The notes below the pieces were generated by a model, which saw nothing but the letters and a program-made list of their open reading frames with translations, ran no database searches and had not been told where the DNA came from. This document shows positions 9,976 to 44,137 of a DNA stretch of 64,000 bases, in pieces. The position numbers and the translations under genes are program-made. The DNA comes from Vibrio sp. DW001 (GTDB lineage Bacteria; Pseudomonadota; Gammaproteobacteria; Enterobacterales; Vibrionaceae). The stretch's first letter is position 1. Every line of letters starts with the position of its first letter. The stretch covers positions 1,550,001-1,614,000 of the forward strand of contig NZ_CP091976.1 in NCBI RefSeq assembly GCF_029016285.1. Reading direction: 5' to 3'.

Positions 9976-11391
9976 ATGGACGTAATGAAAAAACAACTCA
10001 TAACTATAAAACACAGTGTACTGCTGCTTGGGTTAACGCCATTTTGTCTACAAGCAGAAAACTTGTTGCAGGTTTATCAACAAGCGTTGGAAAATGATCC
10101 CGTGTATCGTGCAGGAATATATCAACATCAAGCCGATATTGAAATCTACGATCAGGCAATGGCAGTTTTGCTACCAACCATAAAGTTTGATGCGAGCCGA
10201 ACAGAAACCAAACAAGAAATTGTCAGTTCTGACAATACAGTTTACAACAAAGGCAGCACGTCTTATCCCACAGACGAACTCAGTCTTTCTCTTACTCAAT
10301 CTTTATATAGTTACAGCAATTGGGCGTATTTTAAGCAAGCCAAAGAAGACGTTAAACGTGTTGCTGCTGAGCTAGAAGACGTGAAGCAAGAGTTGCTAAT
10401 GCGTGTCGCAGAAGCCTATTTTAATGTTCTCAAAAAACGAGATAACTACCTTGGTATCCATGCCGAGGTGACCGCCCTTGAAAAGCATTTTGAATTGGTT
10501 GAATTACAGGTTCGGAATGGTTTAGCTCGAACCACGGATTTACTCGACTCTGAAGCGCGCTTTCTGCAAGCGCAAGCCCGTGAAATTGAGATCAGTAACA
10601 ACCTGCAAGATGCACTGCAAGGTATCCATGAGATCACAGGCTCACTACCTCGCTCATTGGTAACACTCGGCGAAGAAATGGCGATGGCAGAACCTGACCC
10701 CTATCAGGTAGAAGCATGGCTAGAAAATGCACAGAAAAATAATCCTATGATTCTCGCAAAAAGAGGCGCGCTCGCGTCAGCACGACAAGAGATTCGACGT
10801 CAACAAGGTGGTCACTATCCGACCTTCGACTTTGTATTCACACAGAATAACAGTGAAACGGATGGTTCGTTATTTGGTGGCGGCAGCGAAGTGGACACAC
10901 AAACTTTTTTAGTACAGATGACGTTACCGCTATATGCCGGTGGTGCGGTTTCTTCCAAGGTTCGCGAAACGGAAAGTTTATATAACAAGTCCAAAGATGA
11001 CCTTGAACTATCATGGCGTGAAACCAATCGTGAAACGCGATCGGCATTCACTGGTGTAACAAGTGCGATAAGCAAAGTAAATGCATTGAAAAAATCGGTT
11101 GAAGCCTATGATTTGGCGGTTGATGTGAAACAACAATCTTTTGAATCGGGTGTTACCTCCAGTGTCACGGTACTAGATGCGGTAAGAGATCTTTTTATTG
11201 CTCGTACTGAATATTCAGCGGCTCGATATGATTACCTACTAAATAACCTACGCTTAAAGAGAGCAGTGGGTACGCTTAATGAGTTGGATATGCAGCAGAT
11301 AAACTCAGCACTGCTTGGAGAAGATGTGTCAACGGATATAAATGCTATGGAGGAAACGTTAGGAAGCGAGTCATTAGCATTACGTCAATAA
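9976..11391 (+). CDS. TolC-family outer-membrane channel protein
   Basis: The 471-residue product is a TolC/outer-membrane efflux protein. It has a signal peptide (about residues 1-27, ending FCLQA before ENLLQVYQQALENDP), then the two helical hairpin repeats typical of the family (for example RVAEAYFNVLKKRDNYLGIHAE and, in the second half, ETESLYNKSKDDLELSWRET and VTVLDAVRDLFIARTEYSAARYDYL). Trimers form the exit duct of type I secretion and efflux systems. I chose ATG 9976 because AAGG lies seven bases before it; a TTG at 9955 would leave no ribosome-binding site. It is the first gene of the giant-protein operon, so its likely cargo is the LEPR-XLL protein rather than drugs. Confidence 0.92.
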   Translation: MDVMKKQLITIKHSVLLLGLTPFCLQAENLLQVYQQALENDPVYRAGIYQHQADIEIYDQAMAVLLPTIKFDASRTETKQEIVSSDNTVYNKGSTSYPTDELSLSLTQSLYSYSNWAYFKQAKEDVKRVAAELEDVKQELLMRVAEAYFNVLKKRDNYLGIHAEVTALEKHFELVELQVRNGLARTTDLLDSEARFLQAQAREIEISNNLQDALQGIHEITGSLPRSLVTLGEEMAMAEPDPYQVEAWLENAQKNNPMILAKRGALASARQEIRRQQGGHYPTFDFVFTQNNSETDGSLFGGGSEVDTQTFLVQMTLPLYAGGAVSSKVRETESLYNKSKDDLELSWRETNRETRSAFTGVTSAISKVNALKKSVEAYDLAVDVKQQSFESGVTSSVTVLDAVRDLFIARTEYSAARYDYLLNNLRLKRAVGTLNELDMQQINSALLGEDVSTDINAMEETLGSESLALRQ

Positions 11392-11511
11392 TAGATTTTA
11401 AAAAACTGTATTCAAAAAGACAGGACTTATAAAAGACAGAGCTTAAAGAAAACAGTACTCAGGGACTAGAAAAAAATAGTCGTATTAAAACAAAGAGATC
11501 AGGAGTTCGAA

Positions 11512-12291
11512 GTGGCTACACAACTATTAATTTATGGACAAGTAGAAGCAGTAAATAAGCAGCGTCACCTAGATTGGTCAATTAAAGCTGAAAGTCATTA
11601 TGGTTTCGCTAAACAAGTTAACTCGGTACCGTTAATGGCGGTCGAATTTCCAAGTGCAGCAGAAGATTACTCAATCGTATTTGCAGGGGAAGGTGACGAC
11701 TTATTGCCGGTTGTTATCATGGGTGTACGTCAAGACGAAAACCTATATATCGATGACAAGGGCGATTGGACAGCAAACTATATTCCAGCGTTTGTTCGCC
11801 GTTATCCTTTTGTTTTTGCGAGTACTGACGCAGGAAAAACCCTAACGCTCTGTTTAGACGAAGAGTATACGGGATGCAATCAAGAAGGACGTGGTGAACG
11901 TCTGTTTGATGCCGATGGCGAGCAAACACATTATCTTGGTAAAGTCCTAGATTTTCTACAGGATTACCAAACGCACTATCAGCGTACACAGGCTTTCTGT
12001 AAAAAACTTAATGAGCTTGAACTGTTCGAAGACATGGGGGCGAAATTTACGCTACCGAACGGCGAAGAGCGCACTTTGACTGGTTTCAAAGTGATCAGTA
12101 AAGAAAAGCTAAAAGCGCTACCTCAAGATGAACTAATGGCGCTGATGGCGAACGACGGGTTAGAGCTTATCTATACCCATCTCCATTCAATGCGAAATCT
12201 AAACAAAGTTTTACAGCGTTTGCCAAGAGAAAAGAATGATACAGACCAGGCGACGACGCTAGAGATAGAAGAAAGTGTGGAAGTTCATTAA
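11512..12291 (+). CDS. SapC-family protein
   Basis: The 259-residue protein matches the SapC family over most of its length: HYGFAKQVNSVPLMAVEFPSAAEDYSIVF, then YIPAFVRRYPFVFAS, CLDEEYTGC and the LNELELFEDM region. SapC was first described in the Campylobacter fetus sap locus, next to the type I exporter of the S-layer proteins; its biochemical role is unknown. There is no signal peptide or membrane segment, so it is probably cytoplasmic and may act on the cargo before export. The start codon is GTG, preceded by AGGAG. It lies between the TolC-like gene and the giant gene, which supports a role in exporting the giant protein. Confidence 0.9.
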   Translation: MATQLLIYGQVEAVNKQRHLDWSIKAESHYGFAKQVNSVPLMAVEFPSAAEDYSIVFAGEGDDLLPVVIMGVRQDENLYIDDKGDWTANYIPAFVRRYPFVFASTDAGKTLTLCLDEEYTGCNQEGRGERLFDADGEQTHYLGKVLDFLQDYQTHYQRTQAFCKKLNELELFEDMGAKFTLPNGEERTLTGFKVISKEKLKALPQDELMALMANDGLELIYTHLHSMRNLNKVLQRLPREKNDTDQATTLEIEESVEVH

Positions 12292-12341
12292 TACGCGCTT
12301 GGTTCGATCAGGTCTAAGCCAAGCAATGAGTACTTACGCTT

Positions 12342-12383
12342 AAAGCAAATACCGCACAGCTGTAAAGCTGTGCAATTTGCTTT
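12342..12383 (+). promoter_or_regulatory. Two-tier hairpin between sapC-like and giant gene
   Basis: An outer stem AAAGCAAAT/ATTTGCTTT (12342-12350 with 12375-12383) encloses an inner stem GCACAGCT/AGCTGTGC (12354-12361 with 12366-12373) and a GTAA loop. All 17 base pairs are perfect. There is no T-run. It ends 72 bases before the giant start codon. It could be an attenuator, an RNase processing site or an mRNA stabiliser between the sapC-like and giant cistrons. Confidence 0.65.
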
Positions 12384-12455
12384 ATGCAGGTAGGCGGAAT
12401 TATACGTTTTAAGGGGCTTTCTACGTGCCAGAAAGTCACATACAGGGTTACAGTT

Positions 12456-15400
12456 ATGGATAATCAACACCTGAACAGAAGTCGAATTTATAATGGTTCT
12501 CGCAAGAATAAGTTCGCAAAAGGACGCCTACCTCAGTTGAGCCGTTTATTTGAAGGAATAAATAAAGCGGTTAAACCAACGCAAGATGACTCAGCAAAAC
12601 TGCATCTAAACACGTTTGCGTTAGAGCAACTCGAGCCACGTCTATTATTATCGGCTGATCCATTAGCGGTACTGGTCGCGGACGCAAATGTGACGTTACA
12701 AGTCATAGAAAATGCGGCGAATGAACAGTATATACAGTTAATCAATAATGACGTAAATGGCACAATATTGGGTGAGCGTAAGCTCTCTGACATCGCAGTA
12801 GACAGTATTATCACCGTGACAGGCACGAGCGGTGATGAAACTCTGACGATAGACCAATCTTTTCTTGATCTCGGTGAACGTCAATTCGTTCTTCAATTTG
12901 ATGGTGCTGGCGGTACCGACAAAGTAGCAACAGGTACTGATGTTACAGAAAGCACTTGGCAGATCAGCGGGGAGAACTCTGGGTCCATGGGGACCAATGG
13001 AATCGTTGATTTTCTCAATATTGAAGAGCTTGAGGCAACAAACAGTAGTGATTCTCAACATGTCCTTTCCGCAATTAATGACAGCTTCAATTGGAAAATA
13101 AGTGGTCAAGGTGAAGGCGTGTTATCCACGTTGGAAGACGTTGCAGGTTCTATATTAAAACAAGCAACAGACGTAGACGTCTCTTTTCGCGGTTTCGATA
13201 CAATAAGTGGTAGTGGCACGGATTACCTCGATTATAGTGATTATACAAGCGGAGTTTCCGTTGACTTAGAAAATGAAACGACATCTGGTTTTGATAGAGT
13301 TACGGGCATCAGCACTTTAATTGGCTCTACCGAGTATGCCGATACCTTTTTTGGTGATAGTAACGATAATCTGTTTGTTGTTGATTTTATAGACGATATT
13401 GCTAATAGCGATGGGTCTACAGACAGCGTTGATGGGAATGGTGGTTTTGATAGTGTCCTTTACCGTGATATGGGGACGACAGGAACAGATATCCAGGCCT
13501 CTGTTGTTGCTACGGGTGCTGATTTTAAACTGACGCATGGTGACTGGAACAACACGGATAGTCTCTTTACTGCGACAAGCATTACGCTACCCAATACCAC
13601 AACAACGGATCTTACGATCAGCATAGTGGATGTTGATCTTCTCGCGGCGAAAGGTGGTTCGGGTGATAACTACTTTGATTTCTCTACCGCGGATGTATCG
13701 GCTCACTTAGACGGTGGTGCGGGTGCCGATATTCTACTTGGTGGTCTTAAAGACGATATCCTTATTGGTGGCGCTGGCGCAGATAACTTAACTGGCGGTG
13801 ATGGCAGTGATGAGGTTATCGAAGTTCGAGCGGAAAACTTCGAATTAACCACAAACAAGCTTCGCATTGGTTCAAGTGGCGAAGAAGACATCTTGTTAGA
13901 GGTAGAAAGTGTTTACCTTAGAGCGACATCAGAAGATGGCTTAGGCAGAACACTAAATGCTGCGAATGCAGATGATTATCACATTACGTTACAAGGTACG
14001 GATTATGACGACACTATAACGGCTTCTGCTTATGGGGATACGTTAATAGGTGGTCTTGGTGCCGATACGATGACTTCGGGTGCTGGAGTCGATACGGTTA
14101 AAGAAAGTTTTGCGGGACGTGCGACTATCGCTCTACCTGGAAGTGACTATGAACTCGACTTATCTCAAGGCACCAATGAAAAGTGGCTCTTAGATGTCCC
14201 TATAATAACGACGGATAGTGGGTATAAACTCACCATAACGGACACCTTCGGTGACATTATTACTGATGAGATTTCGTGGGATGCGGATGCACGAGATGTC
14301 TCCCGCGCAATCGAAAAAGCATTGAATTTGAACTACGGTCAAATGACCGTAACGCAAGACGGCACGGTTTGGCAAATCGAGTTCACTGGCCTTTATTCAG
14401 GTCAACAGGTAGCAACTAACATTGTGGCCGAACATGGTGTTTCAGCTTCTATTGATCAACAAGGTAGTAATATTGTTGATACTCTCATTGGCTTTGATGC
14501 CAGTGATATTATTTCGATTTCAGGTAGTGAGACTGCGGATATTGTCGATCTTACTGCCTTTGTTGGTCAGTCTGTCATATTCACTTATGGTGGAAGCGAC
14601 GTCATCCGAGGTGCACAAGGCAGTAATGTCATTGATGCAGGTGACGGCAGCGATACGGTATATGTCAGTGGCAGCACCAACGATACCGTGATAGGTGGTC
14701 GTGGTGAAGATATTATCATCGCTGATTTTAGCAGTAATGCGGCGTTGGATTATAATTTTGATTTAGACAACGATCAGTTGGCGATCTCTGATGTCACTGA
14801 CACCGCCGCGGTTGTGCAACTGTCACTGATCTCTTTAACTGGATTTGAATCGTCATCACTTACTGGTGGCGCGCTTACTGACACTTTTGATGCGAGCGGT
14901 TTCTACGGTGTATCTGGAACGACCAGCCTGAGTTTGGTTGAAGGTTGGAATGAAGTCACCGAAACCACGTTACGTATAACCCTTGATGATATTGATAACA
15001 CCATCTTTGACATAGATGTGGCCACTTCAACAACCCTTGATGAACTGATTGCATTAATTAACGCCACAGACGATAGAGAAACAGGGGCGCTTAGCGCAAG
15101 TTATAATCAGGCTTCAGGCAGCGTGTCGCTGTCTGGGTTGAGTTATTTGGGTGTTGCTGGCACTGACCTTTCGTTGCTTGATGTTCTAGGGCTATCTCAA
15201 GGAAGCGTTGCTGGTTCTGTTGTTACTGGAATGAGCTTGAGTTTGCTTGCTTCAATGCAAATGACAACCCAAAAAGGTAATGGGGGTAGCGATACCTTTA
15301 TTGGTTCTGCAGGTATCGATTTCTTTGATATCGATATTGATGATGTTTCGGTCTCCGGTGGCACAGGGTTTGATACCATCTCGGCCACGACGACTTCAGC

Positions 15401-18400
15401 CTATACTCAGTTTGAGCTACTTGATGATGAATTGGTTTGGAAGGGGACAGACCCTGCGGATTCTGCGTTGACTATATCGACTTCAGTCGATTTAGATAGT
15501 GTGGAAAAAGCATCATTAATCGCGGATACAGGTGCCACATTATTAGACGCAAACGCAAGCAGTATGGATGTTATTCTGGACGCTGCGTCAACCAATGCGA
15601 TGTTAATTGGCAGTTCAGCCAATAATGAATTCCGCATTGATGTTAGCGGCCGTACGGATACTAGTACTGATAAAGTAACGATAACGGTGGATGGTACGGC
15701 GGCGACAAACGATGTCGTCTTTTACGGGGGTAGCGACACATTTGATGTGACGGATTTTGATTGGGTAACGATTACTGGCGGTGACTTTTCGTTGGTTAGT
15801 GAAAGCAGTGGTGACCTCAATATTATTAATAATACTTCTGTTGTTGGACAAGATATAGAATTTCGTTCAAAAGGTGGAACGATAACCGTTACTGCTTCGT
15901 TGAGTACTGACAACCTAACGGGATCGGCTGGTAGTATTACCTTTGACGCTAGACACATCATTATTGATGATGGCGCGACGATTTCAGCCCAAGGTTCGTC
16001 ACTGACAAATAGTGGCGACATAACGTTAAATGCTTACGATAAACGCAATGATATCGTTGGGCTCGGTTTTTATAATTTAGATCAGCTCAGCGCATCAATA
16101 ACGGTTAACTCTGCCACGATACAAGGCAAGGATATAATACTGTCTGCACGAGCAGAATCTACTCGAGGTGGAATACCTATCGGTTATAGCGGTGGCCAGA
16201 TGACCGTTAACTCTGAGAAGCTGAAAACCGAACTAGAGAGTCAAAGCCTTATCGCAGGCTATTCACGCACGGAAGTTGACTCAACGATTACCATCTCTGA
16301 AGACGCGATTCTCGATGGAAACAATATTTCGCTTAAAGCACACTCGATTGGCCGAGTGGCATCATCACCTATCTCTGGTGGTTTAGCGATCGCGATAGGC
16401 AGCCTGAAATCGACGGCGAATGTTGATATCAAAGGAACAATATTGGCGAAAGGCGACGTGAGTCTTGCCAGCCAAACAGAGAACTATTTGAATGTGTCAG
16501 CTGAACCACTTGCTGACATAGAAGGGCTTTCTGCGAGTGTCGCAGTGGGTTTATTGGATTCAAACTCGATAGTACTGGTTGATCATACCGCGAATATTGT
16601 AACCGACGGCGATCTTGAGGTTAATGCGAGTACATTTGATTTCACCTATGTTGAAGCATTAAGTGACGCAGGTGGCGAAGGTAAATTGGCCGCAAGTGTT
16701 GCCATTCATATTGAAACTGGAGAAACAGTCGCGACACTAGCGGGAACCATACTAGCGAAAGGCAATGTTACTGTCGATGCGACCCAAGCTCAAGCGAACA
16801 TAAAAGGGAACTCAGGAACCAAAGCTGAGGCTATTGTGGACCGAACGGTCACGATCATCGACAAGTATGTCGATAAGTATAAAAATCAACTCGATAATTC
16901 AAAAACATACAGAAAATTCGTCCCATTTGCGGACACCGCATTGAAAAACGATAATGCCATCGCCCCAACCAAATTTACAGCGGGTATTGCACTGGTTTAT
17001 GCCGACGACACGAACAGAGTTAAATCTCTGATTGGATTGGAAGGACAGGTTAGTGATATTCAAGTGGGCGGGACACTGCAACAACATGCAACAGTAGACA
17101 CTCGTTTACTTACTGAAGTGAATTCCGTTTCAAGTACCCCATCTCAATTGTCTCAAGCATTGGGTTCTGCTGGAACCTCAGGCGCATTCAAACAGGTGCC
17201 ATTTGGTGCCGCTGTTTCCGTTACTATTGCGAGCCTAAATAATGATGCGAAGGCCTATATGCAAGGGTCTACTCAGGTTGACGTATTAGACAAAATCACC
17301 CTCGATGCTCAGGCACAAAACCTGACAGGGTTGATCAGTTCTGATACCACCTTCAAATATGTCAAACCGACACTTATAACGAATGCGATGATCAATACCG
17401 ACTACGTTATCAAGAAAGGCGATCTTATTCGTTTTGAAGGTACTCTAGAAAAAGGGAATTATGATTGGCTACAAACTGGAACCGCACTGAAACCGAGTAC
17501 CGGTTTATTAGGCGCCGTCTACAAATATTTAGGCGACGACATTAACGATCTGCGAATGAATACGGCAGATTTTAGTGACGTAACGTTGTGGGAAAGATTA
17601 GGTAATAAATACAACAGCATTCCTAATCAATTGTTTGGTGGTGATTCGAATGTTTATCTTGTTGATAATTCGGTTAAATCCACCGCCGCTGGCGCAAAAG
17701 TTTCGCTATCGCTTAATTTCGCTTTATTCGATTCAACGCAATCGTCTGATGCGAGAATTAAAGGTCAGGTACAGGTCAATCAACGTACCGATTTGGAAAA
17801 CAGTTTTGATACGTTAACGGATCCAGAAGCGAATATTGCGGCGCAATCGATACTTGATAGCGGGTTGGTACTGAGTGCTCGTGATATCGACATGACTTCT
17901 AAAACGGTCAATAAATCGTTTGATTATATAGGTAATGCGACGTCCACTTCTTCTGGTCTTCCGCTGATCGAAAAACTGAATAAAGCCAAAGGTGCTACAG
18001 ACGCCCTAAACGGGGTTGGTGCAAGCGTTTATATAAATAATGTCACTATGAATAGCCACGCGATTATTGAAGATGGTGCTCATGTTTATGCGGACAAATT
18101 AGGGCTTAAGTCTGATAGCGAACTATTTGCTATTGGGCTTGGTTACGCGAGTGGTTCCGGTAATGGAACATTAGGTGTTGCTGGTCTTTATATGGGCTAC
18201 AACCTAAATAGTACATCAGTCGCGCAGATTCAATCAGGCGCGACTATCGATGTCGGAACGCGTTTAGGTAGCGTGGTCTCGGAAGAAAGGCTGAGCGTTG
18301 TTGCTAATAACCAGGTTGATCTTATCGCAGTGGCCGGAGCGGTGGCATCAGGCGGCGCTATTGGCGTCGGCGGTTCGGTAATAGTGACTGACGTGACGAA

Positions 18401-21400
18401 ACAAACGCTAGCGCTTATCGGAACACAAGGTGACAATGTCACTATTGAGGGTAATGTTAACGTTAATGGTGATGCACGAGTTGGAGCCGATAGTGATGGC
18501 GTTATTATTGGTGCGGCTGTAAGTGCCGCTTCCGCAACCGGTAAAGTTACCCCATCAGGCCAAACAGAACCTCCAGTCGAAAATAGTTCATATGGCATCA
18601 GTATCTCTGGTGCGTTCATTTTTAATACCGTTAATAGCACGACGTCATCTGGCCTATATAACATAGCCAGCTTTAATGCGGATACGCTTAAACTGTCAGC
18701 AAACGAGCGAAGCGGTGTTTATGCATTCCCTATCGCTTATGCAAGCTCCTCGGCACAAAAATTTGCGCTAGCCGCGGCCGGGATCGGTCTTAGAAATGAT
18801 GCAACCTTTATAGTCAGTGCCGGTATTTCAAGGGCAACGAATGTAACGCTCGATCAGCTAACGGTCGAGGCAATAAACAGTAGCACCGTTGTGACAGTTT
18901 CGGCGGCCGTCGCTATGTCAGGGTTAGCAGAAACCTCGGCTGGTACCACGAGTAGTATTGCGCTTGCAGGTAATGTGTCGATTAATAATGTGACATCGGA
19001 CGTGGACGCGTTCTTGATAGATGTTATAGACATGCAGGTTGCGGGTAAAAATGACGCTGGCTTCGCAGTTGATATTGAAGCGAAAGATAAGTCAGAAATT
19101 TATGCGGTTGCGTTAGGTGTTGCGTATGCGGGAAATGGCGCTGTTGGCGTGACTTACGCGGAAAATAATATCAATAGCAATGTTGATGCGCTTATCAGCA
19201 ATACCGATCTGACGAGTGCCACAGGGAAGGTCAGTCATCAGGCAAATAGCAACGCAGACATTGTCTCCATTGCTCTAGGTGCAGCGGTGACCAAAGAAAC
19301 CTCTCCAGGTTTTGATAGCAAGCTTGGCATTTCAGTTGCCGCTGCTATAAGCATGAATAAAGTTCGCATGAATACGCGAGCTAAGATAGAAAACAATAGC
19401 ACCATTACATTACCAACCCATGATTTAGATACATCGCGTTTGGATGTAAAAGCCAACAATGATACGGATATTGTCGGCGTCGTCGTTGCCGCTTCCGTTG
19501 GTATACAAAGTGGCGGAACCAACACGATTTCATTCACTGGCGCTGGCGCGAGTGTCACCAATGAAGTGTATGGCGATACCGAAGCGAAGATCGATGGCTC
19601 TACTGTTAATCAAACATCAACAACAGCAGGTAAATCGTCGGGCACGATTGGTACTTTTGTTCAATCCGATGCAACGGGAGATATCGTTGCTACGGTTGTT
19701 TCCGCAAGTGTCGCTTACGCGAGTTCCACAACTGGCACTGGTGTTTCTGGTTCGATTGGTGTCGCGTTAGCCGAGAATAATATTGGTGGAGACCCAGACA
19801 ACAGCAACAAGGCAAATACCGTTAGTGCACTGATTAATAACTCAGATATCAATATCAGTGGGGTGGTGAATACCCATGCTGAAAGTGCTCAGGATATATC
19901 GTCAACGGTGGTTGCTGCTTCAGTTGCAATCGCACAATCAACATCAGGCAGCGCGGGTGCGTTAAGTGGTGTGGGTGCTTCAACAACCAATAATATCGTT
20001 GTGGACGTCAATTCAGGCATCACAGCGAATGTCGCGAACAAGTCTATTTTAGCCGATTCATTAAGTGTCATAGCAAAAGATAAATCAGTCATCAGTACTT
20101 CGGTGGTCGGTGCGTCTGTGGCTGGTGCGTATTCGCCATCGTCATCCGCTGGCACACTAAGTATCGGGGTTTCACTCGCTGAAAATAATGTAACAACCAA
20201 CGTCTCCGCTCTTGTTAGCGGTGCATCTGTTGGTTCACAAGCTCGCCGTATTGGCGCGGTGAATTTAGTCGCAGCTTCACAGGCAGCGATAACGGCGACC
20301 TCAGTTGCGGCATCAATAGCGGCAAGTTACAGCACATCGGGTTCCATTTCGATCAGTGGTGGTGGTGCAAATTCTATCAACACCGTTAAAGGTTCGACAT
20401 CCGCGAAAATTAAAGGCAGCACCATTCATAGTGATTCTTCTGTGGGTGTAACGGCAACAAATATTTCAACAGTCGATGCTACGGTTGTGGCTATTGCGGT
20501 TGCTGGTGCGGGCGGTAATGGCGGTGGTGTGGGTCTATCTATTGGCGCTGCTGTTGCAGAGAATAGCATTGGTATGAGTGGTGCACGTGTATTGATTGAT
20601 GCTTCTATTGAAGATTCATCTGTCGATACAACGTCAACTATTACTTTGTTAGCCGATGCAGGGATGACTATTAATGCTGGTGTGGGTGCAGGGTCGCTTG
20701 CTATAGCAGGTGGTTCTGGCGGTGGTCTTGCCGGTGCGGGTTCGGGGGTCAGCGCAACCAATGATATTTATTCATCGGTAAATAGTTTCATCGACAATTC
20801 AACTGACTCGACAAAACAGATCAAGACCAGTTCGCTGACCATAACGGCAAATAGTGCCTCGTCGATTACCGCGGATGCTGGAGCGGCGTCTTTAGCCGCT
20901 GGTTTTGGTTCTGGTGGCGGGATTACGGGTTCAATTGGCGTGGCGTTAGCGCGTAACAGGATTGATAGTAATAACAATGCTTATGTTAAGAATGCAACGT
21001 TGGAGTTGGGCAGCTCAACGCTTGATATTAACAGCACGACAAACAACACCATTACAGCAATATCAGTGGCGGCATCAATAGGTATTGCTGTTGGTAGCGG
21101 TGGTGGAATTTCATTGTCAGGTGCTGGTGCAGATTCAAATAATCAGATCTTTGGCGATACCTTAGCGTATCTAGATGGCGTTAATCTGCTTAACGTTGGC
21201 AGTATCGATGCTGATGCAACGAATACTTCTACAATAACCGCAACGGTTGTTGCGGTTGCCGTTTCCGGAGCGGGTGGGTCTGGTGGAGGCGCTGGTCTCG
21301 CTATTGGCGCAGCCTTATCCGCAAATGATATTGGTTCATCTAGTGACCGTTTGATGGTGAAAAGCTATGTGGAAAACAGCGCGATAAACGCAACGGGCGC

Positions 21401-33400: not shown

Positions 33401-36400
33401 CACGATTATTGGCGGACTGGGTGCCGATACTTTTAACATCGCGAGTGATGTAGTGAACCCAATCGTCTCGTATTCTGTAGAAGGTCGCAGCAGCTTTATC
33501 AACCACAGTGTCGAGAGTGATGATGATGCTTACAATGATATCTTCGTCAATGGTGTGTCACTTAATGTCGCGAGCCAAAGTAATGGTGCCGTAACGGTTG
33601 ATACTGGTGGCGCTATGTTGCTAGATGAAGATGGTTTGACCGATAGCTATGATATCGGTATTGGTATTCCGAGCGCGGATGTCTTGGCGGGAACGGTTGC
33701 CTACATTACGGTTTCTGCAGCAAGATCGTCCAGCAGTGATGAAGAGAAAACGGCTAATGAAGCCGCGAGTGTCTTGGTTTCAACTAACAATGTGGACTTT
33801 TATGAGTCACTAGTACTTACCTATACTCAGGGTTTAAATTGGGATGCAAATACACCAATTTTTGTGAAAGCGATAGACGACATCGGCGCAGAAGGTCAAC
33901 GTCAATATGTGATTAATCACAGCATAAGAAGTGATAATCCGGCGTTTGACGGCCTTGATATCAACAACGTTGAACTGACTGTTAATGACAATGATCAAGC
34001 GGACATTATCTTAACCAAAAACGGCTCTACAACCTTGGCTGAAGGGGGTAAAGAGGAGACATTCAATGTTCGCCTTGCAACCATGCCGGAACTGGGTGAG
34101 GAGGTCACGATTAATGTCAACGAGCTGGTGCCTACCGATGGATCGAGTCAATTAACCATTACAGGACCCGCGCTTGTATTTACGCAGGCTAACTGGGATA
34201 AGGCGATAGAGTTTACTGTCGTCGCTACCGATGACAGTGACGTAGAAAATGTGTATCAAGCCAGTGTCGTGTTAAGTGGGACGAGTAACCTGACAGGTAC
34301 TGACTATGACGTTGTTGCCGATACAGAACTGGATCTATTTGTTCTCGATAACGACACGGGTTCCGTTATCGTTACGCCGAGCAACGGTACGACCCTAGTG
34401 AGCCAAACAGCACAGGACGATTATTCACTTGTGTTGAGTAAGAAGCCAACGGCCCCCGTTACCGTTAGCTTATTAAATGATGGGCAAACGCTATTCAGTA
34501 GCAGTGACACACGCTTTAACGCGACAGATAATACCGTTACATTTGGTATCAATGATGGCGATTGGAATAAAGCGATTGTTATGGAATTGTCGGTTAACCC
34601 AGATTATCAAGATGACAGCAATCAACCCGTACAGAAAGCGACGCTTCAACCGCATACACTTAATAACATTCGTGGAAAACTGATCATTGAAGGTGGAGTC
34701 CCAGAAGGGAAAGCTCGTACTCTATCAACGGCCGTGATCTTGCCAACGGAACTCGATGGTCCTTTGCCAATCATTGATATCACCCTAAATGAAAACGAAA
34801 TGACCGATACGCTTAATGTCTTTAACGACGGCAGCGTAGAAAACGATATTGGTCTGTTATCCGATACCGCCATTACGGGGTTAGGAATGACCGCCGGTAA
34901 CGGTATCGAATACCACGATATAGAAGTGGTTGAGCTGCTACTTGGTTCGGGTAATGATGACATCACCGTTTCGAATACCGCAGAAGGTGCCATTACGCTC
35001 ATCCATGGTGGCGGTGGTGATGACACCATGAGTGTCACAGGTAGTGATAGCGAAGGTGTTCTCATACTATTGGGTGATTCTGTTCAAGACGGTTCCACTT
35101 ACAACGCGACCTCGTTGGCGAAAACCGCTAACGGTCGTGAATATAAAGTCGCTGGCAACGACACGATTGATGCCTCAGGAGCTGGAGGTTCCGTTGTTAT
35201 TTATGGTGGCCTAGGTGACGATTCACTGACAGGCAGTAATTTTGGTGACCATATCGCGGGTGGTTCAGGTAATGATGAGATATTCGGCTTGGCTGGTGAT
35301 GACCATATCTACGGTGACGCAGGATTCAACTTTGATACAAGTACACGCCTAGACTTATCGACTCAAGTATTGGAAGTGGTGCTAGATGCTGACAGTGCCA
35401 ACGATAACCTTGATACCTCTGACTCACTTCTTGTCGGTAACGACACGATAGATGGTGGCAGTGACAATGATATTATCTTTGGTGATAAAGGAACGATTGT
35501 ACAGTTTACGGGTACCAACCGAATCTTGAATACTGATATAGATTCTGCCGTCAGAATGACCAACAGCGGTCGAGTATTAGGTGGAGAAGACATCGTCCGT
35601 GGTAACAGTGGTGATGACATTATCTTTGGTGGTGTGGCTAGCGACCGTTTATATGGTGGTAACTCGACATCCGGCAATAATATCACTGGTTCTGATAAAG
35701 ACATTATCCTTGGTGACCTTGGTCAGGTGAACATCACGAATGGTAAAGCGGTTCAGGTCTTTACAACCAATAAAAATATTGGCTCTGGAGATAGTATTCA
35801 AGGTAATCAGGATAATGACATTATTCTGGCAGGGTATGGTAATGACGACGTACAGGGTAACAACGGCGACGATAGTATTATCGGCGACAATGGCCAGATA
35901 ACCTTGATTAACGGCGTGCGTTCCGTACTGTTTAGTACCGATACCACCAATGCAACAGGTGGCGATGATGTTATTTCACTTGGCAACGGCAACGACCAAG
36001 CCATTGCGGGTGTTGGCAATGATACGGTGACCAATCGCTCTGGTGAAACCATCATTATTGGTGATGATGGACGAATCGAAAACGATTCGGCGGGTCGCTA
36101 TCTGGTTGCCTTAACCGGAAACACCGCTATAGGTGGAGACGATAACGTTATTGGTGGTTCAGACAGAGATATTATCTTTGGTGGATATGGTGCAGATAGA
36201 CTAGACGGTCAAGCGGGTAATGACTTAATTGGTGGTGATGGTACGAAAGTAACCCGTAATCCGGGCACCATAGTACTTGAAGCTATCGACTTGTTCCTTG
36301 GGGGTGATGATACCCTTTTAGGCGGCGCAGGCTTCGACCGAATGCAGGGACACTACGGTAGTGACTTATTCTTTGCTAACTTTAGAGAAGATGTATTGGT

Positions 36401-37099: not shown

Positions 37100-37135
37100 A
37101 CGGTATCTATACTACTAATAAGGTATGGATACCGT
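37100..37135 (+). terminator. Hairpin 1 after the giant gene
   Basis: ACGGTATCTATAC pairs with GTATGGATACCGT over 13 positions with one T-G wobble, around a ten-base loop, 27 bases after the giant stop codon. It is followed by a T-rich but broken tract (TTTGGTTATTGTATTT). It could act as a partial terminator or as a 3'-end stabiliser. Confidence 0.5.
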
Positions 37136-37345: not shown

Positions 37346-39241
37346 ATGAGAGAACAGGTCGGTACGGCTGAATCTCAGCCGGCATTTTCCGAGCTGCTGA
37401 ATGACCAATTCAGCGTAGTTGAAGACGAATATTATCAACAGTGGCTTTCTGAACACCACAGCGTATTAGATGGACTAAAGTCCGCGTTGGTCATCGTCCC
37501 TATTGATGGCGTGTTGGTCACCGTCGGCACGCTGCACACTCAGTCGCCCTATTTTGAGCCCCTTGTTGCCTTAGCCGATGAGCAAACCTCCAGCCATCAA
37601 CCTCAGGTGGCGACGCTAAACGCGTCTGACCACGGCGAAATGTTTGCGTTGATTTATCCCCTTCGAGACGAAGATAACGAACTCATTGCCCTCATTGCTA
37701 TGGCGGTTGAAGTTAAAAGCCAGACAGAATTACAGAAGGTTTTAACGGCAGTGCAGTGGAGTAGTGCCGGGTTAGAAGTTGTTGAATATCAAAGGCGTCT
37801 TCAGATTGAAAAAGAACATCAATCCGGTATTGCTGAACGTGTAGATATATTGGCACGCGTTCTTGCTGAACCAAATTACTCGAGTGCAGCGGTAAGGCTA
37901 GTGACGGAACTTGCGGTGCTATTTAATTGTGACCGAGTGAGTTTAGGGGAATACAAGAATCATCGTTCTCGATTGAAACATCTTTCTCATAGTGCTCAGT
38001 TTGGTAAACGAATGAACCTAGTGCGCACAATAGAACAGACCATGGACGAGTGTATTGATCAAGGACAGTGCATCCGTTTTCCTCAAAACAACATTTCAGC
38101 AGGGCAAGCATCACCTCCTCCATTCTCGAAAGAGGTGGTGTTAGCACATAGCAAATTATCAGAACAACAAGGCGATGCGTGTGTTATGTCAATACCTGTC
38201 TACGCGGGTGGAGAGATTAAAGGCGCATTAGTTCTAGAGGGTAATCCTGATGTCCCTTGGTCCAGTGTGGAGGCTGATTTATGCCAAAGCATCGCAAGTA
38301 TGGTGATACCCGCTCTTGAGGACAAACGACTTAATGACAGGTGGCTATTACGCAAGATAGCAGATAGCAGTGCTAAGCAACTTGGCCGATTACTTGGTGC
38401 TGGGTATCTTGGTAGGAAGTTGTTTGTTATATCAGTGATCGGCTTGGGTATTTTCTTATATACCGCGGTGGGAACGTATCGACTCTCGGCTGATGCACGC
38501 ATAGAAAGTGCGACACAGCGGGCGATTGTGACTCCCTACGATGGTTACATAAAAGATGCATTTGTTAGAGCGGGTGATCTTGTTAAAGCAGGGCAACAGT
38601 TAGTCTCAATGGATGACAAAGACCTGCGCTTAGAAAGGCTTAAATGGCTAAGTGAAAAGAGCAAACTCAACAGACAATATCAGGAGGCACTTTCGGTAAG
38701 AGATAGGGCAAAAATCAATATAATAAATGCACAGTCTGACCAAGTTCAAGCCCAATTAGAACTGGTTAATAGCCAATTAGAGAGGGGGGATATAACCGCG
38801 CCTTTTGATGGGTTAGTCGTAAGTGGCGATCTTAGCCAACGGCTTGGTAGTGCGGTGTCAAAAGGTGAGAGCCTTTTGGAAGTCGCGCCTGTTGACAGCT
38901 ACCGTATACGTATGTTGATTAAAGAGAGTCGTATCGCAGATATACACCTGCATCAAACTGGGAATCTTTATCTGTCGGCTTTACCAGAAAGCTCGTTTGA
39001 ATTTGAATTGAGTAAAATAACCCCGCTCACTGAGACATTAGATGGTGCAACCTATTTTGTTATCGAAGGTGTGTTAAAAGAAAATGTCGCTATTAACGGT
39101 ACTTCTTCTGGTATTGCTTTGCTACAACCAGGCATGGCAGGGATTGGTAAGATTGTCATAGACGATAGATTGTTGTTCGAAATATGGACGCGTGAAATGC
39201 TAGAGTGGCTTCGCTTACGGATCTGGACTTGGTGGGGGTAG
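37346..39241 (+). CDS. GAF domain fused to a HlyD-type periplasmic adaptor
   Basis: The 631-residue protein has an N-terminal region of about 150 residues I do not recognise, then a GAF-like sensor domain (about 160-330: AAVRLVTELAVLFNCDRVSL, later MSIPVYAGGEIKGALVLEG). One membrane segment follows (about 358-377: KLFVISVIGLGIFLYTAVGTY). After it comes a HlyD/biotinyl-lipoyl adaptor: the half-motif AIVTPYDGYIKDAFVRAGD, a short coiled coil, and the second half GDITAPFDGLVVSGDLSQRLG, then a beta-barrel region. The sensor half would be cytoplasmic and the adaptor half periplasmic. It follows the giant gene by 272 bases and leads the four tightly packed transport genes; only nine bases separate it from the next gene. 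The architecture suggests gating of export by a cytoplasmic signal, which is my inference. Confidence 0.85.
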   Translation: MREQVGTAESQPAFSELLNDQFSVVEDEYYQQWLSEHHSVLDGLKSALVIVPIDGVLVTVGTLHTQSPYFEPLVALADEQTSSHQPQVATLNASDHGEMFALIYPLRDEDNELIALIAMAVEVKSQTELQKVLTAVQWSSAGLEVVEYQRRLQIEKEHQSGIAERVDILARVLAEPNYSSAAVRLVTELAVLFNCDRVSLGEYKNHRSRLKHLSHSAQFGKRMNLVRTIEQTMDECIDQGQCIRFPQNNISAGQASPPPFSKEVVLAHSKLSEQQGDACVMSIPVYAGGEIKGALVLEGNPDVPWSSVEADLCQSIASMVIPALEDKRLNDRWLLRKIADSSAKQLGRLLGAGYLGRKLFVISVIGLGIFLYTAVGTYRLSADARIESATQRAIVTPYDGYIKDAFVRAGDLVKAGQQLVSMDDKDLRLERLKWLSEKSKLNRQYQEALSVRDRAKINIINAQSDQVQAQLELVNSQLERGDITAPFDGLVVSGDLSQRLGSAVSKGESLLEVAPVDSYRIRMLIKESRIADIHLHQTGNLYLSALPESSFEFELSKITPLTETLDGATYFVIEGVLKENVAINGTSSGIALLQPGMAGIGKIVIDDRLLFEIWTREMLEWLRLRIWTWWG

Positions 39242-39250
39242 CGCAACGTT

Positions 39251-41392
39251 ATGTCTGCGACCTTATTTAGTCATTCTTGGTATAAAGTTGCCGACCTAAA
39301 GGTTCGCTTGCGAAAGCATGCGACCATTCACCGACACGTCTATCGTCAAAATGTATTTTATGTTCTGCAAGATCACGCGACGGGTCAATTTCAGCGTTTC
39401 ACCCCTCAAGCCTACCAACTTATCGGCCTGATGGATGGAAAGAACACCCTTCAGCAGATTTGGGATTCAGCTTGTGAAAAGTTAGGTGACGATCTTCCAT
39501 CTCAGGATGAAGTTATTCAGCTAGTTTCTCAGCTTAACAAAGCCAACGTTATTCAAACCAACGCCCTTCCCGATATCGAACAGTTGCAAAGAAGAAGAGA
39601 AAAGCTAGAAAAAGGCAAAATCGTTCAGCAGTTAAAATCGCCACTGAGTATAAAAATCCCACTCGTTGACCCTGAAGCCGTGTTAAACGCGACCTCGTTT
39701 ATCGCTAAGATTATATTTAGTAAATTTGGCGCGCTACTTTGGTTGGTTGTAGTTTTATTTGGAGGATCGTTAGCGATCATCAATTGGCAGGCACTTACAG
39801 AGAACCTAAGTGACAAGGTATTGGGTATCGACAACCTGCTAATTATGGCATTGGTTTACCCCATGGTTAAGCTAGTTCATGAACTTGGGCATGGATATGC
39901 CGTGAAACGATGGGGTGGAGAGGTGCATGAAATGGGGGTTATGTTATTGATCTTTATCCCCGTACCTTACGTGGATGCGTCCGCGGCTTCATCGTTTCGT
40001 AATAAGTATCAACGCATGTTGGTTGGTGCCGTTGGTGTGCTAGGAGAGTTGCTCATGGCCGCTATTGCGATGGTTGTTTGGGTCTCGGTTGAGCCCGGTC
40101 TAGTTCGTGCCATGGCTTATAATGTGATGTTAATTGGTGGTGTTTCTACCTTGTTGTTTAATGGCAACCCACTGCTAAGGTTCGATGCTTATTATGTGTT
40201 GGCTGACTTTCTGGAAATACCAAACTTGGGCAATAGAGGCAACCAGCAAGTCGCCTATTTACTGAAGCGATATGGTTTTGGGATGACAGGGTTAAAAACG
40301 ACGGCGCGTAGTCGAACTGAATCGGCCTGGTTAGTCGGTTACTCATGTTCCGCTTATATATACCGCCTGTTTGTCATGGTGGCTATCTCCCTATTTGTTG
40401 CATCGCAGTATTTTGTAGTTGGTGTGCTGCTTGCTTTTTGGTCCGTCTGGACCAGCTTATTTTCACCTATTATCAAAATGGTCTCTAAGCCTATGACAGA
40501 TCCACAAATGCGTGCAAAACGTACAAGAATATTTACGGTGTCGAGCCTATTTCTCGCCTGTGTTGCTGCTGGATTGTTTTTGGTGCCTTTACCCTATAAA
40601 ACGTATTCTCAAGGGGTGCTTTATGTTCCACAAGAAGCCTTTGTTCGAGTGTCGGTAAGTGGTTTTGTTGATCAGTTATTGGTTGAAGATGGTGCGCAGG
40701 TTTCTAGTCGTCAATCGGTTATTACAATGCGTGCACCCGATCTTTTGTCTCAAGTAAAGGTTCTGTCTGCCCAAGTACATGAGGCACGTACTCGTTATAA
40801 AGCAAGCGTCGGAGATCGGAGTGGTTCCGATATATTGTTACAGGAACTGAGATTTATTGAAAAAGAGCTGCAAAGGGCAAATGAAAGACTATCTGGGTTA
40901 ACGTTGAAGGCGACAGGTTCAGGTGAACTGGTTATTCCTAATAGAGACGGGATTGTTGATCGTTTCTATAGACGAGGTGAGGTACTTGGTTATGTTGTGG
41001 ATTACAAAAACTTGCCACTGACTGTTATGATCTCTGAAGACGACATTGATCGAGTTAGAAACCAGACCCGAGGTGTATCGTTTCGTTTCGTTTCTCAACC
41101 TGATATCGAATATACGGGGTCGATATTGCGCCAAGTTCCCGCGTCAACTCAGCAACTGCCAAGTGCAATTTTGACCATTGAAGGGGGGGGCTCTATCGCA
41201 CTCGACCCTAATAGAGAAAGTGAACTACAAAGCTATCAGAGTTACTTTCGTATCGAATTAGATAGCTCCAATGCCTTAAAAAGACGATTTGATGAAAGGG
41301 TACATGTATTGTTTGTGCATGACCCAGAACCAATTATCTGGCGTTGGGTCCGGAATGTTCGCCGAGTTTTCTTAAGGCAGTTTGATGTATAA
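39251..41392 (+). CDS. PqqD-like / M50 site-2 protease / HlyD fusion membrane protein
   Basis: The 713-residue product has three parts. Residues about 25-110 resemble a PqqD-type peptide-binding winged helix (YVLQDHATGQFQRFTPQAY, then LVSQLNKANVIQTN). A multi-spanning membrane domain contains the metalloprotease motif H210-E211-L-G-H214 and, about 100 residues on, NGNPLLRFDAYY with D312 as the third zinc ligand, as in M50 site-2 proteases. After the last membrane segments a lipoyl/HlyD-like domain starts at about 454 (YVPQEAFVRVSVSGFVDQLL, later KATGSGELVIPNRDGIVDRF). All catalytic residues are present, so it may be an active protease. PqqD-like domains bind leader peptides in peptide-modification systems, so this one may bind the LEPR-XLL region. 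Its stop overlaps the SecA-like start by eight bases. Confidence 0.88.
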   Translation: MSATLFSHSWYKVADLKVRLRKHATIHRHVYRQNVFYVLQDHATGQFQRFTPQAYQLIGLMDGKNTLQQIWDSACEKLGDDLPSQDEVIQLVSQLNKANVIQTNALPDIEQLQRRREKLEKGKIVQQLKSPLSIKIPLVDPEAVLNATSFIAKIIFSKFGALLWLVVVLFGGSLAIINWQALTENLSDKVLGIDNLLIMALVYPMVKLVHELGHGYAVKRWGGEVHEMGVMLLIFIPVPYVDASAASSFRNKYQRMLVGAVGVLGELLMAAIAMVVWVSVEPGLVRAMAYNVMLIGGVSTLLFNGNPLLRFDAYYVLADFLEIPNLGNRGNQQVAYLLKRYGFGMTGLKTTARSRTESAWLVGYSCSAYIYRLFVMVAISLFVASQYFVVGVLLAFWSVWTSLFSPIIKMVSKPMTDPQMRAKRTRIFTVSSLFLACVAAGLFLVPLPYKTYSQGVLYVPQEAFVRVSVSGFVDQLLVEDGAQVSSRQSVITMRAPDLLSQVKVLSAQVHEARTRYKASVGDRSGSDILLQELRFIEKELQRANERLSGLTLKATGSGELVIPNRDGIVDRFYRRGEVLGYVVDYKNLPLTVMISEDDIDRVRNQTRGVSFRFVSQPDIEYTGSILRQVPASTQQLPSAILTIEGGGSIALDPNRESELQSYQSYFRIELDSSNALKRRFDERVHVLFVHDPEPIIWRWVRNVRRVFLRQFDV

Positions 41393-43379
41393 ACGCCCAC
41401 AAAGAATGCCCGCAACGGTGCTAGACAGACCGCAAAAAACAATTGTTCAACAATTATTGATGGTGCGTTGGTGGCGAAAGTTGACCTCTTTTTTTACCCG
41501 ACCAATTCGGTCTTCTGTACTCATTTACCGTCCATTGATGTGGCGTATTAACCGCAGTAAAAATCGATTGTTGATGCTGTCAGAGGAACAATTAACTGAG
41601 GAAATAGTTGATGCCAAATTAGCGCTGCGTAAATATGGGCTGACGAATGCTTTGGTGGTGAAAAGCTTTGCGTTGATCCGAGAGGTTGCCGGGCGAGAAC
41701 TCGGCATGTGGCATTTCGATAGTCAGGTACTCGGCGGTTTAGCTATTCTACATGGCAACATAGGCCAGATGCAGACAGGGGAAGGTAAAACGTTGACCGC
41801 AACATTACCGGTGGCAACAGCAGCCCTTGCCGGCATTCCAACGCATTTGGTCACTGTAAACGACTATCTAACGGCTCGGGACGCGGAATTGATGCTGCCT
41901 GTTTATACAAGGTTAGGTTTATCGGTCGGTGTGATTGTTCAAAACTTAACGGTTGATGAGAGAAAACAGCAGTACGCCTGTGACATCGTTTATTGTACGA
42001 ATAATGAACTGGCGTTTGATTATCTCAAAGACAGCATACAGCTCAAAGGAAAAACAGAAGCATTGCATCTGCATGCTGTCCGTATTCAACCGAATAGAAA
42101 AGAAAAGCCGCTCAATCAGTTGATGCTTCGCGGTCTGCATTTTGCCGTGGTTGATGAGGCCGATGGAGTATTGTTAGATGAAGCGAATACCCCATTGATT
42201 ATTTCTGGTGAAGAGGTGCCGCAAGAAGCTCAACAACAGGTCTATTCTCAGGCTATGGGATTGATTGCAAGTTTGAAGCAGGGCGAACACTACAAAGTGC
42301 TCAAGCAGCAAAGGCAGATAGAAATGACGACAACTGGGGAGAAATTCACCCTGCAACTCACGCAAGATCTTGGTCCGTTATGGAAAGGTAGAGTAAGGCG
42401 TTTGGAATTACTCAGACAAGCTCTCACAGCGTGGCATCTGTTTGAAAAAGATAAACATTACCTTATCCATGATGAAAAAATAGTTATCATTGATGAACAT
42501 ACTGGACGCATGATGCCAGACAGAACATGGGAAAGGGGCCTACATCAATTGATTGAAATTAAAGAAGGTTGTGAGCTTAGCGCACCGAGAGAAACGCTGG
42601 CCAGTGTCAGTTTTCAAAACTTCTTTCGCTATTATCATCACCTTTCGGGTATGACGGGCACGGCTGAAGAGGTAAAAAGTGAGTTATGGCAAGTCTATGA
42701 ACTTCCAGTTGTTGATGTACCAACCCACAAAACGAATCAAAGAAAACTGATACAACGGAAGGTCTATTTTGACGACCATGCAAAATGGCTGGCAATATCG
42801 GAACGAGTTACAGAACTGAAGGCTCAGTTGAGACCCGTGTTGGTTGGAACGCAATCCCTCGCCGCATCGGAATACCTGAGTGATATCCTAACCGGTGAAG
42901 GGATAGAACATCAGGTACTCAATGCGCGGCAAGATGAACAAGAAGCGGAAATTGTTGCACAAGCCGGTGACGCAGGAAAAGTGACTATTGCTACAAGCAT
43001 GGCGGGCCGAGGAACTGATATTAAATTAAGTGAAGAGGTCGATGTGCAAGGTGGACTGCATGTCATTATTACGGGCCTACATGACTCCTCACGAGTAGAT
43101 CGACAGCTAAGAGGCCGTTGTGCGAGGCAGGGAGACAAAGGTAGCTATGAATTTATGTTATCGTTAGAAGACAACGTATTAAGTGACCGATGGGCTTCGG
43201 TGCTACGAAAAACGGTGTATTTGCCTATCCCGCAGCGGCTAAAGAACCGTCTGATGTTATTCGGTATAAGGGTTTGTCAGCGACGGATAGAGCGGGATCA
43301 TGAAAGGGTCCGTAAAGCGTTGCTTCGCAGTGACGAAAGTAAGCAAGATCTTCTCTCATTTACTAATAAAAGGATGTAG
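41385..43379 (+). CDS. Shortened SecA-like translocase ATPase
   Basis: The 664-residue protein is a SecA paralogue. It has Walker A MQTGEGKT (K135), Walker B D257-E-A-D followed by GVLLDEANTPLIISG, the cross-linking domain motif IIDEHTGRMMPDRTWERGLH, SGMTGTA, MAGRGTDI (R542) and the final helicase motif QLRGRCARQGDKGSYEF. Housekeeping SecA has about 300 more residues after this point, carrying most of the helical scaffold with the two-helix finger, the wing domain and the zinc tail. Here only about 65 basic residues follow. The start is ATG 41385, overlapping the M50 gene in ATGTATAA; a TTG lies just before it. It is the only ATPase in the cluster and presumably powers export of the giant protein. 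Confidence 0.92.
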   Translation: MYKRPQRMPATVLDRPQKTIVQQLLMVRWWRKLTSFFTRPIRSSVLIYRPLMWRINRSKNRLLMLSEEQLTEEIVDAKLALRKYGLTNALVVKSFALIREVAGRELGMWHFDSQVLGGLAILHGNIGQMQTGEGKTLTATLPVATAALAGIPTHLVTVNDYLTARDAELMLPVYTRLGLSVGVIVQNLTVDERKQQYACDIVYCTNNELAFDYLKDSIQLKGKTEALHLHAVRIQPNRKEKPLNQLMLRGLHFAVVDEADGVLLDEANTPLIISGEEVPQEAQQQVYSQAMGLIASLKQGEHYKVLKQQRQIEMTTTGEKFTLQLTQDLGPLWKGRVRRLELLRQALTAWHLFEKDKHYLIHDEKIVIIDEHTGRMMPDRTWERGLHQLIEIKEGCELSAPRETLASVSFQNFFRYYHHLSGMTGTAEEVKSELWQVYELPVVDVPTHKTNQRKLIQRKVYFDDHAKWLAISERVTELKAQLRPVLVGTQSLAASEYLSDILTGEGIEHQVLNARQDEQEAEIVAQAGDAGKVTIATSMAGRGTDIKLSEEVDVQGGLHVIITGLHDSSRVDRQLRGRCARQGDKGSYEFMLSLEDNVLSDRWASVLRKTVYLPIPQRLKNRLMLFGIRVCQRRIERDHERVRKALLRSDESKQDLLSFTNKRM

Positions 43380-43384
43380 TCGTT

Positions 43385-44137
43385 ATGACCCATGCGTATG
43401 TATCAAGAAAAATTGTGTTGGCGCTGATATCGCTCGGAATAAGCCATCAAACTTTGGCGATTGATGCAAGCTTATTGGATGAGGCACAATTGAGTTGTTT
43501 GTTAGAACCGAGCATGACGGTAGAATTGAGCAGCTCAGTTCAAGGTGTGATTAAGTCGATAAAACCTCAGCGTGGTGATCAGGTTAAAAAAGGGCAAGTA
43601 GTTATGACATTAGACTCCACGGTAGAACAAGCAGCATTAGATACCGTGATTGCAAGGCTAGAGTTTGCGTCAAGAAAAGTTAAGCGAAATTCAGATCTTA
43701 TCAGAAAAAAACTTATCTCTGAAAACGAACAAGATGAAGTGTTGACTGAACAAAGACTTGCCGTTTTTCAAATGAAAGAAGCAAAAGTTCGGCTAAGTCA
43801 GCGTCGTACGAAAAGCCCTATAGCCGGTGTGGTTGTGGATCGATTAAAAGAGGCGGGTGAGTTTGTAGATGAAACGCCATTTTTGAAAATTGTCAGTCTA
43901 AATCCGATGCATGCTGAGGTGGTATTACCGGCGGAATATTACGGCACGTTACAAAGAGGGGCGTTGGTGACACTCTACACAAATAGTGATGATGGCTTTG
44001 AGGGTAAGATTAAGATCATAGACCCAATTATCGATGCGGCTAGTAATACCTTTGCTGTAACGATTGAACTTGATAATGAAAAACTGAAGTTAGCGGCAGG
44101 ACTCAGATGTAGAGTAACTTTTTCGCAAGATATCTAA
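43385..44137 (+). CDS. HlyD-family periplasmic adaptor (small)
   Basis: The 250-residue product starts with a likely signal peptide or membrane anchor (about residues 1-26, ending HQTLA before IDAS). A biotinyl-lipoyl half-motif (SSVQGVIKSIKPQRGDQVKKGQ), a helical hairpin of about 65 residues and the second half (TKSPIAGVVVDRLKEAGEFV) follow, then a beta-barrel domain (MHAEVVLPAEYYGTLQRGAL). This is the compact adaptor type seen with RND and type I systems. It would bridge the inner-membrane parts to TolC. It begins five bases after the SecA-like stop, with AGGA inside the end of that gene. It is the last gene of the operon and the third protein in it with a HlyD-type domain. Confidence 0.9.
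   Translation: MTHAYVSRKIVLALISLGISHQTLAIDASLLDEAQLSCLLEPSMTVELSSSVQGVIKSIKPQRGDQVKKGQVVMTLDSTVEQAALDTVIARLEFASRKVKRNSDLIRKKLISENEQDEVLTEQRLAVFQMKEAKVRLSQRRTKSPIAGVVVDRLKEAGEFVDETPFLKIVSLNPMHAEVVLPAEYYGTLQRGALVTLYTNSDDGFEGKIKIIDPIIDAASNTFAVTIELDNEKLKLAAGLRCRVTFSQDI

Follow-up and report, generated by a model that had tools for sequence, protein, structure and literature searches.

Two described export routes, type I secretion and the accessory Sec system, come closest to a gene set that we analysed in Vibrio sp. DW001. The set lies in a window of 64,000 nucleotides (NZ_CP091976.1, positions 1,550,001 to 1,614,000; the coordinates below are those of the window). It comprises seven genes on the + strand between 9976 and 44137 which encode, in order, a TolC-family protein, a SapC-family protein, a giant LEPR-XLL protein, a HlyD-type protein with a GAF domain (GAF-HlyD), an M50 protease fused to a HlyD domain (M50-HlyD), a SecA-like ATPase and a short HlyD protein.

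Type I secretion is exemplified by LapEBC, which exports the adhesin LapA (PMC8277102). The set shares with it a TolC-family channel, HlyD-type adaptors and a repeat protein of great length whose C-terminal part carries RTX repeats. Unlike type I secretion, it encodes no ATP-binding cassette (ABC) exporter together with adaptor and substrate and has a SecA-like ATPase in its place, the giant carries an N-terminal LEPR-XLL motif, and HlyD domains occur in three proteins, in one of them together with M50 and in another with GAF. In the accessory Sec system (SecA2/SecY2/Asp) for serine-rich repeat adhesins of Gram-positive bacteria, a SecA paralogue is found beside a large repetitive surface protein (PMC6973325). 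Here too a second SecA exists beside the canonical one, but a second SecY was not found (8/8 genomes) and TolC and HlyD parts are present. Moreover, Clostridioides difficile SecA2 keeps the wing and finger (PMC7503281), both of which are absent from the SecA-like protein. The set lacks a component that defines type I secretion and one that defines accessory Sec, while all of its parts come from families already known.

Two partial likenesses concern single proteins. SecA-N68 (5k9t), a laboratory truncation of Escherichia coli SecA (PMC5603524), has a motor and clamp without C-terminal helical domains, as the SecA-like protein does; the latter differs in being a natural family found in several phyla, in ending later (~662) and in keeping the long scaffold helix. 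The maturation of ribosomally synthesised and post-translationally modified peptides (RiPPs) combines leader binding by a PqqD-type RiPP recognition element (RRE) with M50 proteins (daptide, YydH/LiaK families). M50-HlyD has an M50 domain related to NF041824 and a PqqD-like N-terminus but, unlike those systems, is fused to HlyD, and its presumed substrate is thousands of residues long. The giant itself has a described counterpart of the same size and N-terminal motif in another Vibrio, the ~8,000 aa LEPR-XLL/RTX protein of Vibrio sp. VB16 (PMC10868602). The main text of that paper likens the protein to pore-forming cytotoxins and, by term counts, makes no mention of SecA, HlyD or TolC. In open-access literature judged by title, start of abstract or term counts, no description of the system turned up, in keeping with the statement of an earlier, sequence-only reading of this DNA that no experimental description was known. 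The conserved set is apparently undescribed.

Results

Conservation of the gene set

The seven co-oriented genes described by the sequence-only reading are all present in the order it gave, on the + strand, with families matched by profiles. Its spacing of the last four genes, hereafter the cassette, is also correct: +9 bases (39241/39251), -8 (the SecA-like ATG is at 41385, whereas the M50-HlyD stop ends at 41392) and +5 (43379/43385). As it had claimed, the set holds no ABC ATPase, and no ABC exporter was found among the 27 window genes scanned. ABC domains occur in one of these 27, a two-ATPase protein at 2610-4202 (our own label for it is ABC-F); Pfam shows no membrane domain in it, and it is not an exporter.

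To describe related loci we used an M50-HlyD alignment scan of named genomes and took the best 80 of 585 confirmed stretches; these are the nearest relatives, and the counts are biased accordingly. A SecA-like gene or piece adjoins M50-HlyD on the same strand in 79 of the 80 loci, as a full-length frame in 73 and a partial or weak one in six (five of them shorter than 400 aa). The phyla represented are Proteobacteria, Desulfobacterota and Rokubacteria, and the sole exception is an Omnitrophota contig (L084) whose genome has a 666-aa SecA-like frame elsewhere. By a distance rule, GAF-HlyD lies directly upstream of M50-HlyD in 72 of 75 loci with room for it, and the gene listing shows one in the other three too. 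A HlyD gene follows the SecA-like gene in 62/71 loci with room; two of the nine misses (L058, L076) carry a HlyD frame on the other strand. In 44/80 loci the cassette is preceded by a giant-type frame (600 aa or longer) whose end lies no more than 1.3 kb upstream, and an LEPR-like giant follows the cassette in three more (L084, L087, L110). The stretches covered for the 80 loci, many of them short, showed no type I ABC exporter; the best match to one type I ABC query had 94 bits over 237 aa. Among the marine bacteria in culture that carry the set are Neptuniibacter caesariensis MED92 (L041) and Vibrio comitans (L040).

We also searched a sample of 369 Gammaproteobacteria that were not picked by presence of the system. 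LEPR-XLL was found in 29 genomes and M50-HlyD (E <= 1e-30) in 54, of which 30 had a strong form (>480 bits). M50-HlyD is present in 27 of the 29 LEPR-positive genomes (all except G136 and G272) versus 27 of the 340 others (p 1e-23, Fisher's test, which ignores genome relatedness), and the strong form in 23/29 versus 7/340. Four of these seven genomes without an LEPR match (G154, G316, G322, G418) show a variant of the motif in the frame downstream of the M50 gene or its C-terminal piece, and no giant start was found on the short contigs read for G068, G238 and G323. An unselected search for the SecA-like gene, which like the M50-HlyD search scored at most three candidates per genome, found it in at least 21 genomes, and all 21 were among the 30 with strong M50-HlyD. 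This count is a lower bound, as it missed G113, G361 and G424, which were found by other scoring or by reading the locus. Full candidate scoring covered 35 LEPR- or strong-M50-positive genomes besides that of the window and, together with a reading of loci, placed the SecA-like gene in 24 of the 36, namely in 24/30 with strong M50-HlyD and 0/6 without it; that all 24 have strong M50-HlyD follows partly from the choice of genomes.

The co-occurrence of parts that the sequence-only reading had proposed as a check is thus borne out, both in 79/80 loci and class-wide. The arrangement it had named as contrary, an ABC exporter routinely beside the giant with the SecA-like and M50 genes absent, was not seen in the stretches of the 80 loci. 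The SecA-like gene is not universal, being missing from six of the 30 genomes with strong M50-HlyD. M50-HlyD with its PqqD-like domain is the giant's more constant partner.

A SecA-like ATPase without wing and finger

The SecA-like ATPase (41385..43379, + strand; 664 aa from the ATG) matches the profiles SecA_DEAD, PP_bind and P-loop_SecA (PF07517, PF01043, PF21090) and scores below the cut-offs of the NCBIfam SecA models. It keeps the DEAD motor, the preprotein cross-linking (clamp) domain and the second motor domain. PF07516, which covers the wing, scaffold and two-helix finger, is full in 4/4 canonical SecA proteins and in none of six SecA-like ones, one of which holds a 31-residue piece. 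Its C-terminus corresponds to about residue 662 of E. coli SecA, and the structural match stops at residue 615 of 6itc. Motor residues G133-T137 and D258/E259 are invariant in 36 SecA-like rows. In our SecA tree, which like that of M50-HlyD is a quick one with some long branches and in which the 25 canonical SecA rows represent 20 distinct genes, the SecA-like proteins form their own long-separated group. A degraded or locally duplicated SecA was rejected on the basis of this group and the invariant motor residues. The Vibrio sp. DW001 genome also has a canonical SecA. Both types are present in 11 genomes, although in a Rokubacteria genome only a 211-aa piece was read as canonical. One SecY was found in each of the eight genomes searched.

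M50-HlyD and the giant LEPR-XLL protein

M50-HlyD (39251..41392, + strand) combines, by profiles and conserved residues, a putative PqqD-like domain, a membrane M50 (site-2-type) protease and a HlyD domain. The HExxH motif and the downstream Asp zinc ligand are present, and H210, E211, H214 and D312 are invariant in 31 alignment rows. PF02163 matches 31/31 of the proteins at E <= 0.1, although the window's own score (25.4 bits) is under the cut-off of 27.2, and NF041824 (daptide_HExxH) gives 142.7 bits, below the family cut-off of 300. The PqqD call made earlier is weak on the window protein alone (E 0.0075; 0.0004 for the first 110 residues, under the curated cut-off), but among relatives the N-terminal piece matches PqqD in 19/21 at E <= 0.1. 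The structural model of M50-HlyD is of modest quality; the 50 structure matches listed for it are of HlyD type, biotinyl/lipoyl type and N-terminal winged-helix type, and none of them is an M50 structure. Vibrio algarum provides the closest named relatives of both M50-HlyD and the SecA-like protein. A divergent M50-HlyD family (214-363 bits; L126, L154, L155) occurs in genomes with giants that have LEPRLLFDGAA-, LEDRILLDANP- or LEERVLFSANP-like starts, and a SecA-like gene was not found in those genomes.

The giant protein (12456..37073, + strand) has 8205 aa from a conserved ATG and 8229 aa if read from 12384; comparison with relatives indicates that 12456 is probably the true start. By script count it contains three cysteines, and its net charge is -554. 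LktA_tand_53 repeats occupy residues of about 2250-5000, and RTX repeats (PF00353) lie near both ends, the C-terminal ones being stronger. LEPR-8K (NF012209) matches residues 78-99 with 28.8 bits (cut-off 17), which places the protein in that family. The corresponding LEPR-XLL motif (LEPRLLLSADPLA...; 12615..12680, + strand) is our candidate leader or recognition signal. Because M50-HlyD appears to begin with a PqqD-like domain, LEPR-XLL is suggested to be a leader signal for that protein. No 12-residue stretch upstream of the motif reaches a mean hydropathy of 2.0 in any of the 28 giants measured (34 loci less five missed by the pattern and one too short), whereas TolC and HlyD of Vibrio sp. 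DW001 do so in the same measure. In the giant of the window, however, the motif itself has a value of 2.09. This hydrophobic stretch is preceded by a hydrophilic N-terminus, and a very unusual signal-peptide-like reading of it is possible.

At the other end of the giant, an 'AALAAVGGW..' motif with a basic tail (36996..37073, + strand) is a candidate second sorting signal. The pattern 'AG..GW' occurs in 31/45 giant tails versus 7.3 expected by shuffling, a count that includes likely chance matches (e.g. L067, L093, L095, L109), and most of the alphaproteobacterial tails listed have no GW motif. Giants can be larger elsewhere: the single-contig 1.9 Mb genome G113 (L121-L124) has two frames for LEPR-XLL giants close together, 13848 and 3186 aa long, and one cassette.

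Channel, adaptors, transcription and neighbouring genes

The TolC-family outer-membrane channel (9976..11391, + strand; open reading frame from TTG 9955, first ATG 9976) matches the TolC (OEP) profiles PF02321 and TIGR01844 (297.7 bits, cut-off 225.15). GAF-HlyD (37346..39241, + strand) matches PF01590, PF16576 and PF13437, and its domains suggest a membrane-anchored adaptor with a cytosolic GAF domain. The short HlyD-family adaptor (43385..44137, + strand; TIGR01730 134.5 bits, cut-off 94.9) is predicted to be periplasmic. The SapC-family protein (11512..12291, + strand) matches PF07277 with 250.7 bits; SapC occurs in 14/80 related loci and lies between the M50-HlyD and SecA-like genes in six. 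At one locus of this system (L049:4403-7007) TolC and SapC are separated by three genes; one of these encodes a CxxxCxxC stretch, which we take to resemble the radical SAM enzyme motif.

A terminator-like hairpin lies between sapC and the giant gene (12354-12373, + strand, with an overlapping stem on the - strand too), in a region (9400-12600) with seven terminator-like sites versus a mean of 2.7 (standard deviation 1.8) in shuffles. Another follows the giant gene (37100-37135), in a scan with a hairpin count no higher than in shuffles. A promoter scan of the cassette gave 11 sites versus 14.2 in shuffles, and at the Endozoicomonas locus L039 the giant gene is divergent from the cassette. The two hairpins and this divergent layout make a single transcript less likely than a division into two modules, TolC-SapC-giant and the cassette. 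The single operon of the sequence-only reading is thereby replaced by a suggested two or three transcripts.

Among neighbouring genes, a PAS-GGDEF-EAL protein is encoded at L133:1021-4146 between the HlyD and giant genes, hinting that in some genomes the giant is under cyclic di-GMP control. The window itself encodes an EAL response regulator (55000-56511) and, downstream of the set, a JmjC/ROXA-like oxygenase (46041-47195, - strand), probably a ribosomal oxygenase.

Discussion

The most likely reading, whose chances we put at about even, is that the set is an export machine dedicated to giant LEPR-XLL proteins. We judge equally balanced the view that it forms a separate secretion type, found in several phyla, in which a TolC/HlyD duct would be driven by a wingless, fingerless SecA-family motor and a membrane protease would recognise the N-terminal LEPR-XLL leader of giant proteins through its PqqD/RRE domain. 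In the proposed mechanism, the PqqD-like domain of M50-HlyD would, judging from its fold, bind the leader of the giant in the cytosol. The SecA-like ATPase, which keeps the necessary domains, would then clamp the unfolded chain and drive it by ATP hydrolysis. Since the finger is lost and no second SecY was found, the ATPase may dock on M50-HlyD instead of putting a finger into SecY; judging from sequence and model, M50-HlyD is apparently the only part of the set that spans the inner membrane with many helices. The M50 site, with its invariant active-site residues, would cut at the leader or close to it. By what is known of these families, a periplasmic adaptor tube to TolC would be built from GAF-HlyD, the short HlyD and the HlyD domain of M50-HlyD, for exit in one step, and the RTX repeats would fold on Ca2+ outside. 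The C-terminal GW motif might retain the chain end or set it free, though this is a guess. Of the earlier proposal of one machine hybrid between Sec and TolC export, the conserved set is supported; 'Sec-type pushing' in the manner of canonical SecA is not supported as worded, given the missing wing and finger and the one SecY in 8/8 genomes.

Several observations weigh against a strict need for the motor. The six strong-M50 genomes without the SecA-like gene (G112, G154, G249, G265, G348, G408; many-contig drafts) include one, G249, with a giant frame of 7,543 residues. A variant in which GAF-HlyD, M50-HlyD and HlyD are followed by the giant, with no adjacent SecA-like gene, recurs at loci L144, L145, L146, L163 and L133, in G249 (with one extra gene between), G265, G348, G408 and one copy in G401. 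These variants are the strongest result against a motor role. Four SecA-less M50 copies from four families group inside SecA-bearing ones, which suggests that the SecA-like part was probably lost at times; one of the four is from G401, where another M50 copy adjoins a SecA-like gene, and the other SecA-less copies fall outside or on long branches. Where it is missing, the remaining parts may draw on canonical SecA or on a different source of energy. The same variants are what would be expected if M50-HlyD and the adaptors were the transporter or processing core and the SecA-like protein a helper (an unfoldase, chaperone or gate), beneficial to export yet dispensable; no other ATPase was recognised beside the variant in a screen limited to SecA and ABC proteins. 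We regard this as improbable, however, given the adjacency in 79/80 loci and the motor residues invariant in 36 rows, and we know of no M50 protease that acts as a transporter.

A somewhat less unlikely alternative is that the SecA-like ATPase uses the housekeeping SecYEG, with HlyD and TolC acting only on the periplasmic side, that is, an accessory Sec system coupled to a TolC duct. With one SecY found in 8/8 genomes, a SecA-type motor has just that SecY to work with, and the end of the protein near residue 662 falls within the range between N643 and N669 in which SecA fragments were found critical for functional interaction with SecYEG-SecDF-YajC (PMC5456053). Yet SecA enters SecY with its two-helix finger (PMC6599042), and this is the part that the SecA-like protein lacks. 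The hydropathy of the giants upstream of the motif also speaks against a Sec signal, albeit with the value of the motif in the window's giant on the other side. That the giant leaves through an ordinary type I ABC exporter whose gene lies elsewhere, with the set only processing or anchoring it, seems very improbable. Many type I substrates carry C-terminal RTX repeats, as the giant does, and Vibrio sp. DW001 has one such exporter over the cut-off, far from the set (C2:770598-772685, TIGR03375 961 bits), with a weaker match at C1:506599; others are present in G015, G022, G025 and G036. In a genome-wide test that scored up to 27 candidates per genome, 8 of 28 genomes with a SecA-like gene or close giant had an exporter over the cut-off and 16 had one at E <= 1e-100, but the remaining 12, including single-contig G113 and G166, had none at that threshold. 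None was found near the set in the 80 loci, many of them short, and the dedicated TolC and three HlyD-type proteins would be left without an obvious job. On the grounds that the set holds no ABC exporter and that these 12 genomes gave no such match, we rejected an ordinary type I system.

If a dedicated export machine is the right reading, bacteria would be able, with a SecA-type motor and no ABC exporter, to bring proteins out of the cell whose frames are as long as about 14,000 residues. This would add a further energy source to TolC-dependent export, for which ABC, resistance-nodulation-division and major facilitator superfamily transporters are named (PMC8277102). The system would also put to the test how much of SecA chain movement requires, and would link RiPP-style leader reading to protein secretion. 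LEPR-XLL, which is given no job in the literature we found, would become a testable export signal.
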